64,000 bases of DNA from Micromonospora sp. Llam0 (GTDB lineage Bacteria > Actinomycetota > Actinomycetes > Mycobacteriales > Micromonosporaceae): positions 1,116,001 through 1,180,000 of the forward strand of contig NZ_RJJY01000001.1 in the NCBI RefSeq assembly GCF_003751085.1. The letters are read 5' to 3'. Below the pieces are notes generated by a model. It was not told the DNA's origin. It worked only from the letters and a program-made list of their open reading frames with translations, and made no database searches. Shown piece by piece: positions 3,627-10,336 of the stretch. A program made the position numbers and the translations under genes. Each line of letters starts with the position of its first letter. Positions within the stretch are counted from its first letter, which is position 1.

Positions 3627-4277
3627 TCAGCACCTGACCCAGTCCAGGTTGAACAGGGTGTCGACGTTGCCTTCGGTCGTGATCATCGACATGCTGGCCT
3701 GGCCGTTGGAGGTGCCGGCGTCCACTCGCAGCTCGGTGTTGATGTTCAGCACCCGCTGTTGCCCACAGGGGAGGTACAACAGCACCGGTGCGTGATCCGC
3801 GGTGGCCCAGAAGCCGTTGTACGGTCCGCCGAACGTGGCGTCGGTACGGCTGTTGTCGGACGAACCCTGCCAGTAGTAGTTCGTCCGCTGCCGGCCGGTC
3901 GCCCCGCTGGGGATCCGGGCCCTGCCCCGGTAGTCCGCGGTGGCGACCGCGAAGGTCCAGCCGGCCGGCACCTTGACGAGCACACCGAGTTGGCAGTTCT
4001 TCCGGCTGTCCGTCGGGTCGGCCCCGTCACCGACGGTGGCGAGGAAGTCGTAGTAGCGGATCCGGAACCCGGTGTTGTCGGGGTTGGCGACGACCCTGGC
4101 CGTGCCGGGCGCGCAGCCCGAACCGCTGGCGGCCACCACCTCCACGGTGATGTCGCTGTCCGGCACGGCGCTCGACGTCGCCGGAGAGGCATGGGCCGGA
4201 GCGGTCAGGGTCAGCGCGAGAACCGTGCCGAGTGCGGCGAACATTCCGTGTCTCGCGCCGGTGAGGCTTCTTTTCAT
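3627..4277 (-). CDS. Secreted DUF4360-type protein (copy 1)
   Basis: The 216-residue product has a classical signal peptide (MKRSLTGARHGMFAALGTVL, cleavage after AHA) and a mature domain with paired cysteines. It has the DUF4360 pattern seen in secreted actinobacterial and fungal proteins: SGSGCAPGTARVVANPDNTG, then SRKNCQLGVLVKVPAG, TADYRGRARIPSG and a C-terminal LNINTELRV strand. The ATG at 4277 is preceded by GAGGGGA at good spacing; upstream in-frame starts lack both an RBS and the signal peptide. It is homologous to the divergent gene at 4760, so the two are diverged paralogues read from a shared 480-bp intergenic region. The biochemical role of DUF4360 is unknown; the protein is presumably extracellular. 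Confidence 0.8.
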   Translation of the reverse strand: MKRSLTGARHGMFAALGTVLALTLTAPAHASPATSSAVPDSDITVEVVAASGSGCAPGTARVVANPDNTGFRIRYYDFLATVGDGADPTDSRKNCQLGVLVKVPAGWTFAVATADYRGRARIPSGATGRQRTNYYWQGSSDNSRTDATFGGPYNGFWATADHAPVLLYLPCGQQRVLNINTELRVDAGTSNGQASMSMITTEGNVDTLFNLDWVRC

Positions 4278-4759
4278 TCCGTTCCCCTCGGGGTTCAGGT
4301 TATGACGGCTGGGGCACACACGACTTTGCGGAACAACCGCGCCGTTGATCTTTGTCCGCTGGACCCTTTGGATCATGGGGGATTGGGTCCAGGGTTTTTC
4401 GGCGGGGCGTCCTGCGAAAGGATGATAGCGACGAGCATCGATTCATGCAAGCATCTGCCAGAGTCGATGTGTTGATATTGGTTCTGCCCAGGTCGCGTGC
4501 CGTGTGCCCGTTTCGGTGGGATCAACTAGCCGGTCATTGGAGGCAATTGGGTCGACCTTTTGGGATGTTTGTGGATGATTTGCGCGGTTGGTGCGGTCGC
4601 CGCCTGCTCCGCCGACTGGGTCGGGATGGTCGGTGGCGAGACGGCATGCGATCAATTTCTGAAACTCTCCGTGGCAATTAAATTTACGTTGACAACCATC
4701 AATGTCTGTACGTAGATTGTTGCGCACGCATCGTCGCATCACACATCGGAGGAGGTTTC
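4278..4759. other. Divergent intergenic region of the DUF4360 pair, AT-richer than its surroundings
   Basis: No convincing gene is present. The region holds a hairpin at 4359-4392 (CTGGACCC/GGGTCCAG) followed by GGTTTTT on the + strand, and a sigma-A-like promoter at 4689-4718. Base composition from about 4400 to 4740 is clearly less GC-rich than neighbouring coding DNA, as expected for a regulatory region that Lsr2 might bind. Confidence 0.5.
4689..4718 (+). promoter_or_regulatory. Sigma-A-like promoter of DUF4360 copy 2
   Basis: A perfect TTGACA -35 (4689-4694), an 18-bp spacer and TAGATT (-10, 4713-4718) lie 42 bases before the start codon. A strong GGAGGAGG Shine-Dalgarno (4750-4757) follows. 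Confidence 0.65.
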
Positions 4760-5407
4760 ATGCGCAAACTGCTGACGCGTGGCGGCGTGGTGCTTGCGTT
4801 GCTCGCCTCATCGTTGATCTCGGGCGCACCCGCGTCCGCCAAGGGGATCCTGGATGACCCACCGGATGACCATGTCGTGATCGATCTGGTCGCGATGGCG
4901 GGTTCCGGTTGTCGGCCGGGTACCGCCGACGTCGCCGTCTCGCCGGACAACACCGCCTTCACCACCATCTACAGCGACTACCTGGTACAGGCGGGTCCGG
5001 GTATCTCGGTCACCGAAGGTCGCCGGAACTGCCAGCTCAACGTGCTGGTGCACGCGCCGGCGGGCTACACCTTCGCGATCGTGAAGGTGGACTACCGCGG
5101 CTACGGGCTGCTCAGCCCGGGTGCCATCGCCACGCAGCGGGCCAACTACTACTTCCAGGGAATGACTCAGGGCACCTTCAGCAGCCATCCGATTCCGGCT
5201 CCGCTGGACGACAACTGGATGGTGAGCGACGAGGTGCCGATCGCCTCCGTGGTCTGGCATCCGTGTGGCGAGATCCGCAACCTCAACATCAACACCGAGT
5301 TGCGCCTGAGCAAGGGATCGTCGACGGACGTCAGCTTCCTGACCATGGACTCGACGGACGGCAGCATCGAGACGATGTACCACCTGGCCTGGCAGCCCTG
5401 CCCGTGA
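4760..5407 (+). CDS. Secreted DUF4360-type protein (copy 2)
   Basis: The 215-residue product starts with a signal peptide (MRKLLTRGGVVLALLASSL, cleavage near ASA). The DUF4360 core follows: AGSGCRPGTADVAVSPDNTA, GRRNCQLNVLVHAPAG, VDYRGYGLLSPGA, RANYYFQG, HPCGEIRNLNINTELRL. The four cysteines sit at positions equivalent to copy 1, suggesting conserved disulfides. An unusually strong RBS (GGAGGAGG) and a TTGACA-type promoter suggest high expression. The function of DUF4360 is not established; it may be a surface or secreted structural protein. Confidence 0.82.
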   Translation: MRKLLTRGGVVLALLASSLISGAPASAKGILDDPPDDHVVIDLVAMAGSGCRPGTADVAVSPDNTAFTTIYSDYLVQAGPGISVTEGRRNCQLNVLVHAPAGYTFAIVKVDYRGYGLLSPGAIATQRANYYFQGMTQGTFSSHPIPAPLDDNWMVSDEVPIASVVWHPCGEIRNLNINTELRLSKGSSTDVSFLTMDSTDGSIETMYHLAWQPCP

Positions 5408-7855: not shown

Positions 7856-8818
7856 GTGCCCAGGACACGCCTCGATCTCGACCGGATCCACGCCGCACGC
7901 CAGGTGATCGACCCCGTGTTCCTCGATACGCCGATGTACCGGTGCGACGCGTTGGGACGCCAGCTCGGCTGCACCGTGAGCATCAAACTGGAAACCGCGA
8001 ACCCGGTCCGCAGCTTCAAGGCCCGGGGCGCCGAACTGGTGGCGAGCGGGCTGGCCGGGCAGGGCCGGACCGACGTGGTGTGCGCCAGCGCCGGTAACCT
8101 CGGTCTGGCGCTCAGCTGGTCCGGACGCCACCGCGGTTTGGACGTCACGGTCGTGGCGTCGCGGTCGGCGCCGGTGGCCAAGCTCGACCGGATCCGCGCG
8201 CTGGGATCCGCGCTGGAGTTGGTCGACGGCGACTTCGAAGCGGCTCGTGAGCGGGCTGCGCGTGTCGCGCGACGGCGCCGCGCCCGGCTGGTCGAGGACA
8301 GCTTGGACGTCGAGACCTGTGAGGGCGCCGCGACGATCGGCGTTGAGCTGGTCGGCGGCGTACCCGACTTCGACACTGTGCTGCTTTCCCTGGGCGGCGG
8401 TGCGCTGGCCAGCGGTGTCGGCTACGTTCTGAAGGCCCTGGCCCCCGGCGTCGAGGTGATCTGCGTGCAGCCCGCAGGCGCGTCGGCGATGACCCGGTCC
8501 TGGCATGAACGGCGGGTCGTTACCACCGAGTCGGTCGACACCATCGCCGACGGTGTCGCCGGCCGGCTCCCCATCCCAGCGGTCCTGGCCGACCTCGTCA
8601 CGGTGGTTGACGACGCCGTACTCGTTCGCGAGTCGTCGATCGTCGCGGGCATGCGGCTGCTGCTCGAGCATCCGGGACTGATCGTCGAGCCGTCAGCCGC
8701 ACTCGGCGTCGCCGCCGTGCTGGAGGACCGCGACCGCTTCGCCGGGCGGCACGTCGTCACGGTCGTCTGCGGCAGTAACGTCGATCTGGGTGCCTATCGA
8801 CGCTGGGTCCACCGGTGA
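7856..8818 (+). CDS. PLP-dependent threonine/serine dehydratase-like enzyme
   Basis: The 320-residue protein has the fold-type II PLP architecture: SFKARGAE near residue 55 supplies the Schiff-base lysine, CASAGNLGLALSW is the substrate-binding loop, and SLGGGALASGVGY is the phosphate-binding glycine loop. The C-terminus has VVCGSNVD. Family knowledge: these enzymes dehydrate L-threonine or L-serine to 2-oxo acids plus ammonia; some relatives are racemases or ectoine utilisation enzymes. It lacks the ACT regulatory domain of IlvA, so a catabolic type is likely. The GTG start at 7856 lies 7 bases after TATCGT (7843-7848), which suggests a leaderless transcript. Confidence 0.8.
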   Translation: MPRTRLDLDRIHAARQVIDPVFLDTPMYRCDALGRQLGCTVSIKLETANPVRSFKARGAELVASGLAGQGRTDVVCASAGNLGLALSWSGRHRGLDVTVVASRSAPVAKLDRIRALGSALELVDGDFEAARERAARVARRRRARLVEDSLDVETCEGAATIGVELVGGVPDFDTVLLSLGGGALASGVGYVLKALAPGVEVICVQPAGASAMTRSWHERRVVTTESVDTIADGVAGRLPIPAVLADLVTVVDDAVLVRESSIVAGMRLLLEHPGLIVEPSAALGVAAVLEDRDRFAGRHVVTVVCGSNVDLGAYRRWVHR

Positions 8819-8835
8819 CCCGGTCAGGGTATGGC

Positions 8836-8868
8836 GAGGCCCGGAGAGCTGTCCTGTCTCCGGGCCTC
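8836..8868. terminator. Hairpin shared by the dehydratase gene and the convergent ncRNA
   Basis: A perfect 12-bp inverted repeat (8836-8847 with 8857-8868, arm GAGGCCCGGAGA on the minus strand) with a 9-nt loop. It lies 17 bases after the dehydratase stop and about 20 bases beyond the last paired element of the minus-strand structured RNA. Confidence 0.7.
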
Positions 8869-8928
8869 TGGGCTGCCGCCCATTTGCTGTCGTCAGCACG
8901 TTTAAAAGGGACGGATCACTCTTCATGA

Positions 8929-8990
8929 CGCCGGGTTTTGCCCTTAAACTACCGCGCCGCGTTGGAGGCGCGAGCTGGAATCGAACCAGC
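8929..8990 (-). ncRNA. Permuted tRNA-like domain 2
   Basis: In minus-strand order: T-stem GCTGG (8990-8986), T-loop TTCGATT, T-stem CCAGC (8978-8974), 3' acceptor strand TCGCGCC (8973-8967), discriminator T and CCA (8966-8963), a 4-nt linker, 5' acceptor strand GGCGCGG (8958-8952, pairing with one G-U), TA, then a perfect 4-bp D-stem GTTT/AAAC around a GG-containing loop AAGGGCA. Elbow nucleotides (U8, D-loop GG, TTCRA T-loop) are canonical. No normal anticodon stem closes it; the 9-bp helix 9014-9006 / 8915-8907 takes that place. Confidence 0.75.
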
Positions 8991-9071
8991 ATCCAGCTGT
9001 CCCTGTCCGTCCCTCCTCGACCTGACGACCGGCGGCGAATGCTGAGCGTGGAGCGAGAGCCTGAGTGTGTG

Positions 9072-9147
9072 GCGGCTGCCTCTGCCAGTTGGGCCACCCC
9101 GGTGTGGCTGGTACCGGGGGCGGGGCTCGAACCCGCACTGGGACCGC
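9072..9147 (-). ncRNA. Permuted tRNA-like domain 1
   Basis: In minus-strand order: 3' anticodon-stem strand GCGGT (9147-9143), 6-nt variable loop, T-stem GCGGG, T-loop TTCGAGC, T-stem CCCGC, 3' acceptor CCCCGGT (9119-9113), discriminator A and CCA (9112-9109), 5-nt linker GCCAC, 5' acceptor ACCGGGG (9103-9097, perfect 7-bp pairing), TG, D-arm GCCC-AACTGGCAGA-GGC, A, and 5' anticodon-stem strand GCCGC (9076-9072). Every piece of a 76-nt tRNA is present, but the chain opens at the anticodon loop. The bases where an anticodon loop would be (CACACAC / TGACGAA) lack U33, so decoding is unlikely. Confidence 0.8.
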
Positions 9148-9187
9148 TTCGTCAGATTCGTCGTCAGCTTCAGCTTGGTGCTCCTCT

Positions 9188-9242
9188 GCCGTCAGCCGGT
9201 GTGAACCCGGCTGACGGCCACCCCCGGGGCTCAGTCCGGGGG
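9188..9242 (-). ncRNA. Two hairpins upstream of the tRNA-like domains
   Basis: Hairpin A pairs CCCCCGG (9242-9236) with CCGGGGG (9227-9221). Hairpin B is a perfect 12-bp stem, GCCGTCAGCCGG (9218-9207) with CCGGCTGACGGC (9199-9188), loop GTTCACA. The junction reads CCGGGGG-TG-GCC...GGC-AGAGGAGC, which mirrors the acceptor-D-arm junction of domain 1 with the D-loop replaced by a long hairpin. It lacks a T-arm and may be a degenerate third module. Confidence 0.55.
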
Positions 9243-9278
9243 AGACTGTGATGGTATCCAACAGCAGGTGTTCCGCGA

Positions 9279-10019
9279 CTACCCGAACAGGTAACCGAAG
9301 ACCGTGTCGCCGATGCGCTGGTCGGTGACCTCGGCGCCGTTGGCCTCCTCGCGGGCGAACTTGACCGCGGTCTGCAGCGCCGCGATCCGGTCCAGCAACT
9401 CGTTGACCCGCCGGGCCGGCAGCGCACCGGAGAACTTGACCGTCGTCCAGTAGCCGACCGGTACGTCCTCGTAGTAGACCTCGACCTGCGCCGGGTGTTT
9501 GTCGGTCGCCTCGGCCTTGACGTGGTTGCGGGGCACCTTCTTCGTCTTGACCGTACGCACCGGTTCGGTACGCCAGGAGTCGGTCGACTCGTCGCGGCTC
9601 CACGACTCGGCCGCGTCCAGCACCGGCAACTTCTTGACGAAGGTGTGCAGGTCGACCAGCTGCTTCTCCAGGAACAGCAGGTACGACACCGGCGCGGCGG
9701 TGACCAGGGTCCGGCCGTCGACCACGACATCGGCGGTGGCCCGGGTGTTCGCCCAGTCCTTGGTGGCGGTCACGTCGAACAGCCGGGTCAGGGTCTTCGC
9801 CACGTCCCGCAGCACCTGCTCGGCGTGTACCTGCACCCGGGTCGACTCGGGCGGGAACTGCTCACCCTCCTCGTCCTTCGGCTGGTAGGTGCGGGAGATG
9901 CCGGACAGCAGCGGCTGCTTCTGCACCACGTGGTGCGCCTCGGTCAACTCCGCGAAGGACTTGCTCTTGACGCCCTTCTCCACCGCGATGATCTGGTTCA
10001 GCTTGGTCACGGCGATCAT
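9279..10019 (-). CDS. Conserved actinobacterial protein of unknown function (DUF7873-like)
   Basis: The 246-residue soluble protein begins MIAVTKLNQIIAVEKGVKSK. It contains long conserved blocks typical of a widespread actinobacterial family I recall as DUF7873, including GISRTYQPKDEEGEQ, RLFDVTATKDWANTRA, KKVPRNHVKAEAT, VEVYYEDVPVGYWTTVKFSG and a C-terminal LLDRIAALQTAVKFAREEAN coiled helix. No catalytic motif is recognisable. There is no signal peptide or membrane segment, and charge is mixed with several Lys/Arg-rich patches compatible with RNA binding (inference). The start at 10019 is preferred by family N-terminus; an in-frame ATG at 10034 is possible. Its stop is 37 bases from the structured RNA with tRNA-like domains, which strongly suggests a protein-RNA unit. 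Confidence 0.7.
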   Translation of the reverse strand: MIAVTKLNQIIAVEKGVKSKSFAELTEAHHVVQKQPLLSGISRTYQPKDEEGEQFPPESTRVQVHAEQVLRDVAKTLTRLFDVTATKDWANTRATADVVVDGRTLVTAAPVSYLLFLEKQLVDLHTFVKKLPVLDAAESWSRDESTDSWRTEPVRTVKTKKVPRNHVKAEATDKHPAQVEVYYEDVPVGYWTTVKFSGALPARRVNELLDRIAALQTAVKFAREEANGAEVTDQRIGDTVFGYLFG

Positions 10020-10336
10020 GCTCGCAGACGACATCAACCCGGTCGAGCGGATTCGCTGCGGCCGGTGCCGGCTGAACCGGTGATTGTATCGATCATTGTC
10101 GCGTGCCAGAATTCGCCTCAGCCGCACCGGGAGCCAACGCGAGCGGCTCGTTTCAGACCGAGGGGACAGCCGGGGGTGACCACCGTCCGGCGCCGGGCAC
10201 TCCTCTCCCCAGCCCACCACGTCGACCGTCCTCGACCCGTGTGACCCGCACCGTCCGACCCAGACCGGGCCGGACCCGGTCGACAGTCGACACGTCGGCC
10301 CGTGGTGGCAGCCCTGCGGATCTGTAGGAGAACGCG
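10020..10336. other. Divergent promoter region between the DUF7873-like gene and the cellulase
   Basis: No gene is visible. On the minus strand TACAAT (10088-10083) is a good -10 candidate about 65 bases before the DUF7873-like start. On the plus strand the only clear signal is the cellulase Shine-Dalgarno GGAG (10327-10330). I found no copy of the CebR/CelR operator TGGGAGCGCTCCCA here. Confidence 0.4.

Follow-up and report, generated by a model that had tools for sequence, protein, structure and literature searches.

A DUF7873 gene and a downstream RNA with two circularly permuted tRNA-like domains in Micromonospora sp. Llam0: probably a new RNA–protein pair of bacteria and bacterial viruses

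In Micromonospora sp. Llam0 (assembly GCF_003751085.1) a protein gene of the DUF7873 family is followed, on the same strand, by a conserved structured RNA of about 370 nucleotides (nt), with two arms that are each tipped by a circularly permuted tRNA-like domain. Both lie in a 64,000 nt stretch of contig NZ_RJJY01000001.1 (positions 1,116,001 to 1,180,000 of the forward strand), which is referred to here as the window and to which all coordinates relate. The gene occupies 9279..10019 of the minus strand, stop codon included, and the RNA, as delimited by alignment A5 and RNAalifold, 8837..9206 of the same strand. The RNA has a conserved structure, is coupled to DUF7873, and resembles YrlA, the bacterial Y RNA that partners Ro60 (Rsr). 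Gene and RNA are found together in many bacteria and bacterial viruses, and are therefore likely to represent a new RNA–protein machine, one that probably resembles the known Ro60/Y-RNA system without using it. The balance of probability leans slightly towards DUF7873 and its downstream RNA forming a ribonucleoprotein of their own, similar in its working to the bacterial Ro60 (Rsr)-YrlA particle but distinct from it.

Within each domain the order of the parts is T-arm, 3' acceptor strand, short linker, 5' acceptor strand, U8, and D-arm. A pattern scanner was used that demands a TTCRA T-loop, at least 4/5 T-stem and 6/7 acceptor pairs, U8, at least 3/4 D-stem pairs, and GG in the D-loop, with a score of at least 13. 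Run on both strands of the window, it finds exactly these two domains, and a covariance model of domain 2 (R1, trained on alignment A3, whose rows include the window) gives only these two window matches at an expectation value (E) ≤1. Two such domains had been placed here, on this strand, in a preliminary description of the DNA, and direct reading, the scanner, and the model all bear this out. It had also been expected there that a conventional tRNA finder would miss the permuted order and indeed ARAGORN reports no tRNA here. With Rfam, likewise, nothing in the window scores at or above a family's gathering threshold. In the 80 named bacterial loci that were scanned as background there were 144 on-target matches versus 1 off-target match in 1.31 million strand-bases.

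Alignments A2 (domain 1) and A3 (domain 2) were built from rows with two scanner hits, linkers of no more than 12 nt, and less than 86% similarity, taking 44 and 31 of 100 eligible loci, respectively, plus the window. Because the rows were selected by the scanner, the percentages of paired cells are inflated, while double changes are not built in. In domain 1 the T-arm (9120..9136, minus strand, as are all features of the RNA) is paired in 100% of cells, with double changes in 4/5 pairs, and the permuted acceptor stem (9097..9119) in 99.7%, with double changes in 7/7 pairs. Its 3' strand CCCCGGT (9113-9119) is followed by the linker, or loop, ACCAGCCAC (9104-9112), then by the 5' strand ACCGGGG (9097-9103), which is the pairing given in the preliminary description, by U8 (9096), and by the D-arm (9078..9094). 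There, 75% of D-stem cells are paired, the fourth scanner position being unpaired in 45/45 rows, and the elbow residues are invariant. In domain 2 the T-arm (8974..8990) is again 100% paired, with double changes in 4/5 pairs, and the acceptor stem (8952..8973) is 99.6% paired, with double changes in 7/7 pairs; it runs from TCGCGCC (8967-8973) through the linker TCCAACGC (8959-8966) to GGCGCGG (8952-8958). U8 (8951) and a D-arm (8935..8949) that is 96.1% paired, with double changes in 3/4 pairs, complete this domain.

U8, A14, G18, G19, and A21 (tRNA numbering assigned in this analysis) are invariant in 45/45 domain-1 rows and 32/32 domain-2 rows, in agreement with the earlier observation that U8, the D-loop GG, and the TTCRA T-loops are kept in both domains. 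A14 and A21 are not demanded by the scanner, yet are invariant, and they complete the elbow set with U8, G18, G19, U54, U55, C56, and A58. The preliminary description had the T-arm and 3' acceptor strand followed by CCA; the order holds, but the triplet is not conserved, being present in 30/78 domain-1 linkers and 12/78 domain-2 linkers. The linker therefore seems to cap the stem as a loop, not to represent the 3' end of a tRNA, and the heads look like closed mimics.

The wider RNA covaries as well. RNAalifold on A5, which holds 24 of 30 listed loci with a domain-1 linker of no more than 20 nt plus the window (25 sequences), predicts 84 pairs, 49 of which have at least one double change. The 5' part varies between species; in the window a leader hairpin, the 11-bp inverted repeat CCGTCAGCCGG/CCGGCTGACGG (9189..9217), can be seen directly. 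Arm I, which carries head 1, is held by a basal helix between GCUGA (9170..9174) and UCAGC (9041..9045; A5 columns 33-37/184-188) that is nearly invariant, with no double changes, and thus gives no covariation evidence; the domain 1 D-arm is paired by RNAalifold in a manner unlike the tRNA pattern (columns 129-131/139-141). Arm II is a rod (8875..9036) carrying head 2 and is made up of helices Pa (9031-9036/8875-8880, double changes in 3/6 pairs), Pb (9022-9027/8891-8896, 4/6), Pc (9006-9014/8906-8915, 7/8), and an anticodon-like stem (8994-9000/8927-8933, 5/7, with 4/7 positions pairing in the window), none of which is selected for by the scanner. At the end of the RNA is a terminator-like 12-bp hairpin without a T-run (8837..8867; A5 columns 371-382/391-402), which has double changes in 10/12 pairs and is not called by a T-run-based terminator scan.

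For domain 1 (45 sequences) there are 170 double-change cells versus 58.8 in shuffles. For domain 2 (32 sequences) 98.8% of cells are paired, with 132 double-change cells versus 30.6 in shuffles and a covariation score of 0.832 versus 0.223. The check proposed in the preliminary description, namely a covariance model, compensatory changes in both acceptor stems, and a search beside DUF7873 genes, has been made and its outcome is favourable.

Permuted tRNA genes, known from algae and one archaeon, share the placement of the 3' half before the 5' half, according to PMC3978253, and the elbow residues of tRNA are kept in this RNA family. That the domains are such genes, with products joined to give functional tRNAs in the manner of red algae, is nevertheless very improbable. 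The window domains appear to have no anticodon loop, and the anticodon-like stem of domain 2 does not close on a 7-nt loop, but is extended into a rod through Pc, Pb, and Pa. The genome, moreover, already has 45 ordinary tRNA matches.

The association of the RNA with DUF7873 extends well beyond the window. At least one permuted domain is present within 500 nt downstream of the DUF7873 stop codon in 100/100 bacterial loci, of which 78 have two and 22 have one, and in 50/61 viral loci (21 with one, 29 with two); the 61 include one contig with 0 nt and one with 245 nt of downstream sequence. The controls for these 161 loci gave 0/161 in the 500 nt upstream, 0/161 on the reverse strand, and 1/3200 in dinucleotide shuffles. 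Among the 11 viral misses, L125 has a longer linker and two model hits, L116, L121, L134, L136, L137, L138, and L146 have downstream model hits of 34–55 bits, and the contig of L139 ends at the DUF7873 gene. R1 hits in loci L101-L161 are not independent, since A3 holds 15 viral rows from this set; independent for R1 are loci L225-L304 and, the window apart, 61 related genomes. Of the 22 bacterial loci with a single hit, 21 were searched again with the model, which located a further domain in five (L006, L011, L060, L077, and L079). At L023 a shorter stretch visibly stands in place of domain 1.

More distant viral loci were collected through protein alignment A4 and number 80, with 31–50% identity to a Klebsiella phage query that is itself the 100% row; the weakest row has 31%. 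Leaving out two of the 80 with less than 300 nt downstream, a domain lies within 800 nt downstream in 71/78, against 2/78 upstream, 0/78 on the reverse strand, and 5/1560 block shuffles. Of the seven misses, L244, L249, L250, and L268 give downstream R1 hits of 35–51 bits, and L261, L266, and L297 give weak R1 hits only, of 14–17 bits. In ten named phage regions, taken from 73 phage records, a domain was found within about 620 nt in nine: Arthrobacter phage Mimi, Gordonia phages Phendrix and Ziko, Rhodococcus phage NiceHouse, Klebsiella phage KpLz-2_45, Rhizobium phages Y65 and Y1_11, Vibrio phage K479, and Pseudanabaena phage PA-SR01. In the tenth, a Microcoleus phage, there are model hits only, about 1.8–2.1 kb off, beyond the next open reading frame (ORF). 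There is no constant neighbour family at the 80 named bacterial loci, the commonest being found at 14 of them. The scanner counts on the 161 loci, the 78 distant viral loci, and the 80 named loci are the unselected tests. Co-conservation down to about 30% protein identity, together with the covariation, strongly supports the view already put forward in the preliminary description that protein and RNA are a dedicated tRNA-mimicking pair. Competition with tRNA and the recruitment of RNase P, put forward there as well, would be possible further roles.

Spurious stems do arise in high-GC sequence, and it could be supposed that the domains are due to chance or are decayed tRNA genes. The upstream, reverse-strand, shuffle, and off-target controls, and the covariation of both domains and of the whole RNA, leave this explanation with hardly any probability; the control counts refute it. 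Somewhat more can be said for a cis-acting 3' untranslated region, an element in the DUF7873 mRNA that would govern its processing, its stability, or its autoregulation, with the tRNA-like folds serving as RNase P-type cleavage sites. The domain is downstream and on the same strand as DUF7873 in 150/161 loci, and never upstream or on the reverse strand, and no sigma-70-like promoter was found in 8780-10150, which is a weak test in a high-GC genome. Yet the two-armed architecture of about 370 nt, which covaries from the window's genome to Actinoplanes, Actinomadura, and Streptomyces, exceeds what a processing site would need, and neither CCA nor linker length is conserved, so that a cis-acting role appears distinctly unlikely.

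The nearest known relative of the window RNA is the Y RNA YrlA. At a permissive threshold Rfam returns YrlA (RF02553) for both domains, with 26.5 bits (E 0.0018) and 19.8 bits (E 0.16), although neither reaches the RF02553 gathering score of 69 bits. This threshold discriminates poorly: nowhere in the 61 related genomes does a YrlA match reach it, RNAs adjacent to genes for TROVE (Ro60) proteins included, so that RF02553 at that score misses these TROVE-adjacent RNAs. Both RNAs have a closed, circularly permuted module of T-arm, acceptor, and D-arm on a long stem, and PMC11472068 reports a circular permutation with respect to tRNA for the Y RNA 6CU1. The likeness fits homology and convergence alike, as both RNA classes imitate tRNA. 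There are also differences, in that two modules are carried by the window RNA, of about 370 nt, and at 78/100 bacterial loci, and in that the window RNA adjoins DUF7873, not Ro60. It is, further, downstream of its protein gene, whereas the module is upstream of the gene in the five Ro60 loci that were re-examined. The preliminary description had seen no Ro60 gene in the window; a search of the whole genome for TROVE likewise gives 0 matches.

In the 61 related genomes R1 gives 31 hits of at least 50 bits. Of these, 23 are beside DUF7873, covering 20/20 genomes with this family, six are upstream of a TROVE (Ro60) match, and two are in ordinary tRNA arrays. Five of the six TROVE loci were fetched, and TROVE was confirmed in an ORF of 507–544 amino acids just downstream of the module; in genome G056 the module (44.9 bits) overlaps the 5' end, as called, of an ORF encoding both TROVE and the vWA domain of Ro60. 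Weaker R1 hits are present in every one of the 61 relatives at E≤0.001, those inspected being largely ordinary tRNA genes. TROVE is found in 12 of these genomes, DUF7873 in 20, and both in seven; the window's genome has DUF7873 only. R1 thus finds one kind of module in the company of two distinct proteins, DUF7873 and TROVE. Ro60 (TROVE) genes of relatives at L196, L197, L199, L200, and L202 have one or two permuted domains just upstream.

Two-piece transfer-messenger RNA (tmRNA) is another permuted tRNA-like RNA of bacteria, according to PMC3978253. The window RNA differs in having two tRNA-like domains and a dedicated neighbouring protein, there is no tmRNA match at gathering score in the window, and an ordinary tmRNA in one piece (130.1 bits, G000:C1:5221252-5221625) is encoded in the genome, which leaves a two-piece tmRNA with a negligible probability. 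The same one-piece gene refutes the idea that the window RNA is the cell's only tmRNA.

The window protein, of 246 amino acids, was recognized as DUF7873-like in the preliminary description and belongs to Pfam PF25283, which it matches over residues 5-245 with 397.9 bits, the Pfam cut-off being 27 bits. A Pfam scan at E≤1 gives DUF7873 alone and no TROVE domain, and no match at E≤1 was returned by NCBIfam, PHROG, or PADLOC. In the distant alignment A6, 43/43 members match PF25283 at E≤0.1, and among the invariant residues are A-R-..-A-N, within the last long helix, and P-A-Q, which precedes the last long strand. AlphaFold2 models of the window protein (predicted local distance difference test, pLDDT, 91.7; predicted template modelling score, pTM, 0.67) and of a second DUF7873 protein about 30% identical to it (pLDDT 89.2, pTM 0.64) agree in a succession of long helix, long helix, beta hairpin, helix, long beta hairpin, and long helix. 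Comparison of these folds points to no known function, and DUF7873 is named nowhere in the literature that was searched, the coverage of which is limited.

From the coupling alone, DUF7873 would be expected to bind the RNA. The most likely mechanism, by analogy with YrlA, is a ribonucleoprotein with DUF7873 standing in for Ro60 and with tRNA-recognizing enzymes held by the heads. In YrlA the basal stem binds Rsr and the tRNA-like domain binds PNPase, and the RNA is a substrate of DusA and TruB, as set out in section 3.3 of PMC8394870. The window RNA is predicted to fold into two rods, the outer end of each being a closed, circularly permuted tRNA elbow, in which the T-loop and D-loop are joined to a loop-capped acceptor stem and both an anticodon and a free CCA end are absent. 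DUF7873 would bind to the rods, or else to the loops inside them, and the elbow mimics would hold an enzyme that recognizes tRNA elbows, either PNPase, as in YrlA, or a tRNA-modifying or tRNA-processing enzyme. Such a particle may influence whether structured RNA, probably tRNA, is degraded, repaired, or protected. Phages, some of which carry the pair inside tRNA arrays, presumably use it to manage tRNA during infection, and actinobacteria would keep it as a stand-alone gene pair. Some jumbo phages encode TROVE proteins, according to PMC7824862, so that phage use of such platforms has a precedent.

Several observations weigh against a two-headed particle that works in this way. The viral loci L114 and L115 keep DUF7873 without a model hit, L114 having also been read directly, and 16 bacterial loci, such as L023, L015, L016, L020, L032, L043, and L062, have a single domain by both scanner and model. 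The distant viral loci with a domain also mostly have only one (61/71, with two in 10); since some bacterial and most distant viral loci show one, two heads are not essential. The halves of a domain 1 anticodon stem that had been read in the window are weakly supported, only 62.2% of cells being paired in the 45-row alignment, although the acceptor stem described with them stands. By one of the five covariation measures for domain 2, the number of pairs with any double change, the count of 14 compares with a shuffle mean of 12.0, and 36/500 shuffles reach it. In the protein, comparison of the predicted models shows no recognized RNA-binding fold, and DUF7873 is not basic (isoelectric point 6.6). 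No partner enzyme is encoded at the locus, and the enzyme-tethering step thus rests on analogy.

The main rival to a Ro60-like particle is a decoy. The permuted elbows would then imitate tRNA, resist nucleases, and keep anticodon nucleases or other defence enzymes that attack tRNA occupied, with DUF7873 stabilizing the decoy; this would be a phage counter-defence that was later kept by actinobacteria. Some of the phages do have the pair inside tRNA arrays: at least five tRNA genes are nearby in 20/61 close viral loci (flanks of up to 6 kb) and 8/80 distant ones (3 kb). The mimics would lack the anticodon that such nucleases cut, and competitive inhibition of an anticodon nuclease has been suggested for the tRNA-like domain of YrlA, in the discussion section of PMC7790460. 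On the other hand, an RNA that has no anticodon loop would be a poor bait for an enzyme that recognizes this loop, and the bacterial copies, in Streptomyces, Actinoplanes, and others, are outside arrays, with 0/80 loci having three or more tRNA genes within 4 kb. A decoy is a tentative explanation, and an unlikely one, though less so than a cis-acting element. GOLLD RNA is similar in being a large structured RNA tied to phage and mycobacterial tRNA clusters, as reported in PMC9569102; at the Rfam gathering score it is matched neither by the window nor by any of 11 viral DUF7873 loci.

At least 7427 DUF7873 homologues were found in databases at E≤0.001, from 7999 candidates scored. The best 80 named bacterial loci are mostly from Streptomyces, and also from Actinoplanes, Actinomadura, Kitasatospora, and others. 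In a broad sample of the phylum DUF7873 is present in 7/396, a match is present in Deinobacterium chartae, a control genome, and the family also occurs in four plasmid-collection records.

An ordinary-order tRNA-like element often follows the permuted domains, 250–700 nt past the DUF7873 stop codon, as at L018, L020, L126, and others. There are 37 same-strand ARAGORN calls of this kind in 241 loci, some loci being counted more than once, and annotated tRNAs are present at L213 (6097-6169) and L218 (5960-6035). The anticodons differ widely, and the element may be a third mimic or a mere neighbouring tRNA gene. Near viral DUF7873 genes ARAGORN also calls tRNAs with a CTA anticodon, labelled tRNA-Pyl, at L125 (4748-4821) and at L126 (3295-3363), where it is just after domain 2. 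The viral contig of L123 has its own tmRNA gene (4476-4873; ARAGORN with a tag peptide, Rfam 108.7 bits) about 1.1 kb upstream of its DUF7873 gene. Elsewhere in the window, the neighbouring genes at 3627-4376 (minus strand) and 4760-5407 (plus strand) encode secreted-looking paralogues that are 40% identical over 206 alignment columns.

Bacterial Y RNAs that mimic tRNA are known as partners of Ro60, and here the same kind of module travels with another protein family, in a pair whose range includes Streptomyces as well as Klebsiella, Rhizobium, and cyanobacterial phages and that is missed by conventional tRNA and Rfam annotation. With confidence only a little better than even, the pair can be seen as a second, Ro60-independent class of Y-RNA-like ribonucleoprotein, made up of DUF7873 and tandem or single permuted elbow RNAs, managing or shielding tRNA during phage infection, and common to actinobacteria and to phages of actinobacteria, proteobacteria, and cyanobacteria. 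DUF7873 gains a testable biochemical role, and the mimicry of the tRNA elbow is suggested to be a reusable platform. The pair may also help to explain the presence of tRNA arrays in some large phages.

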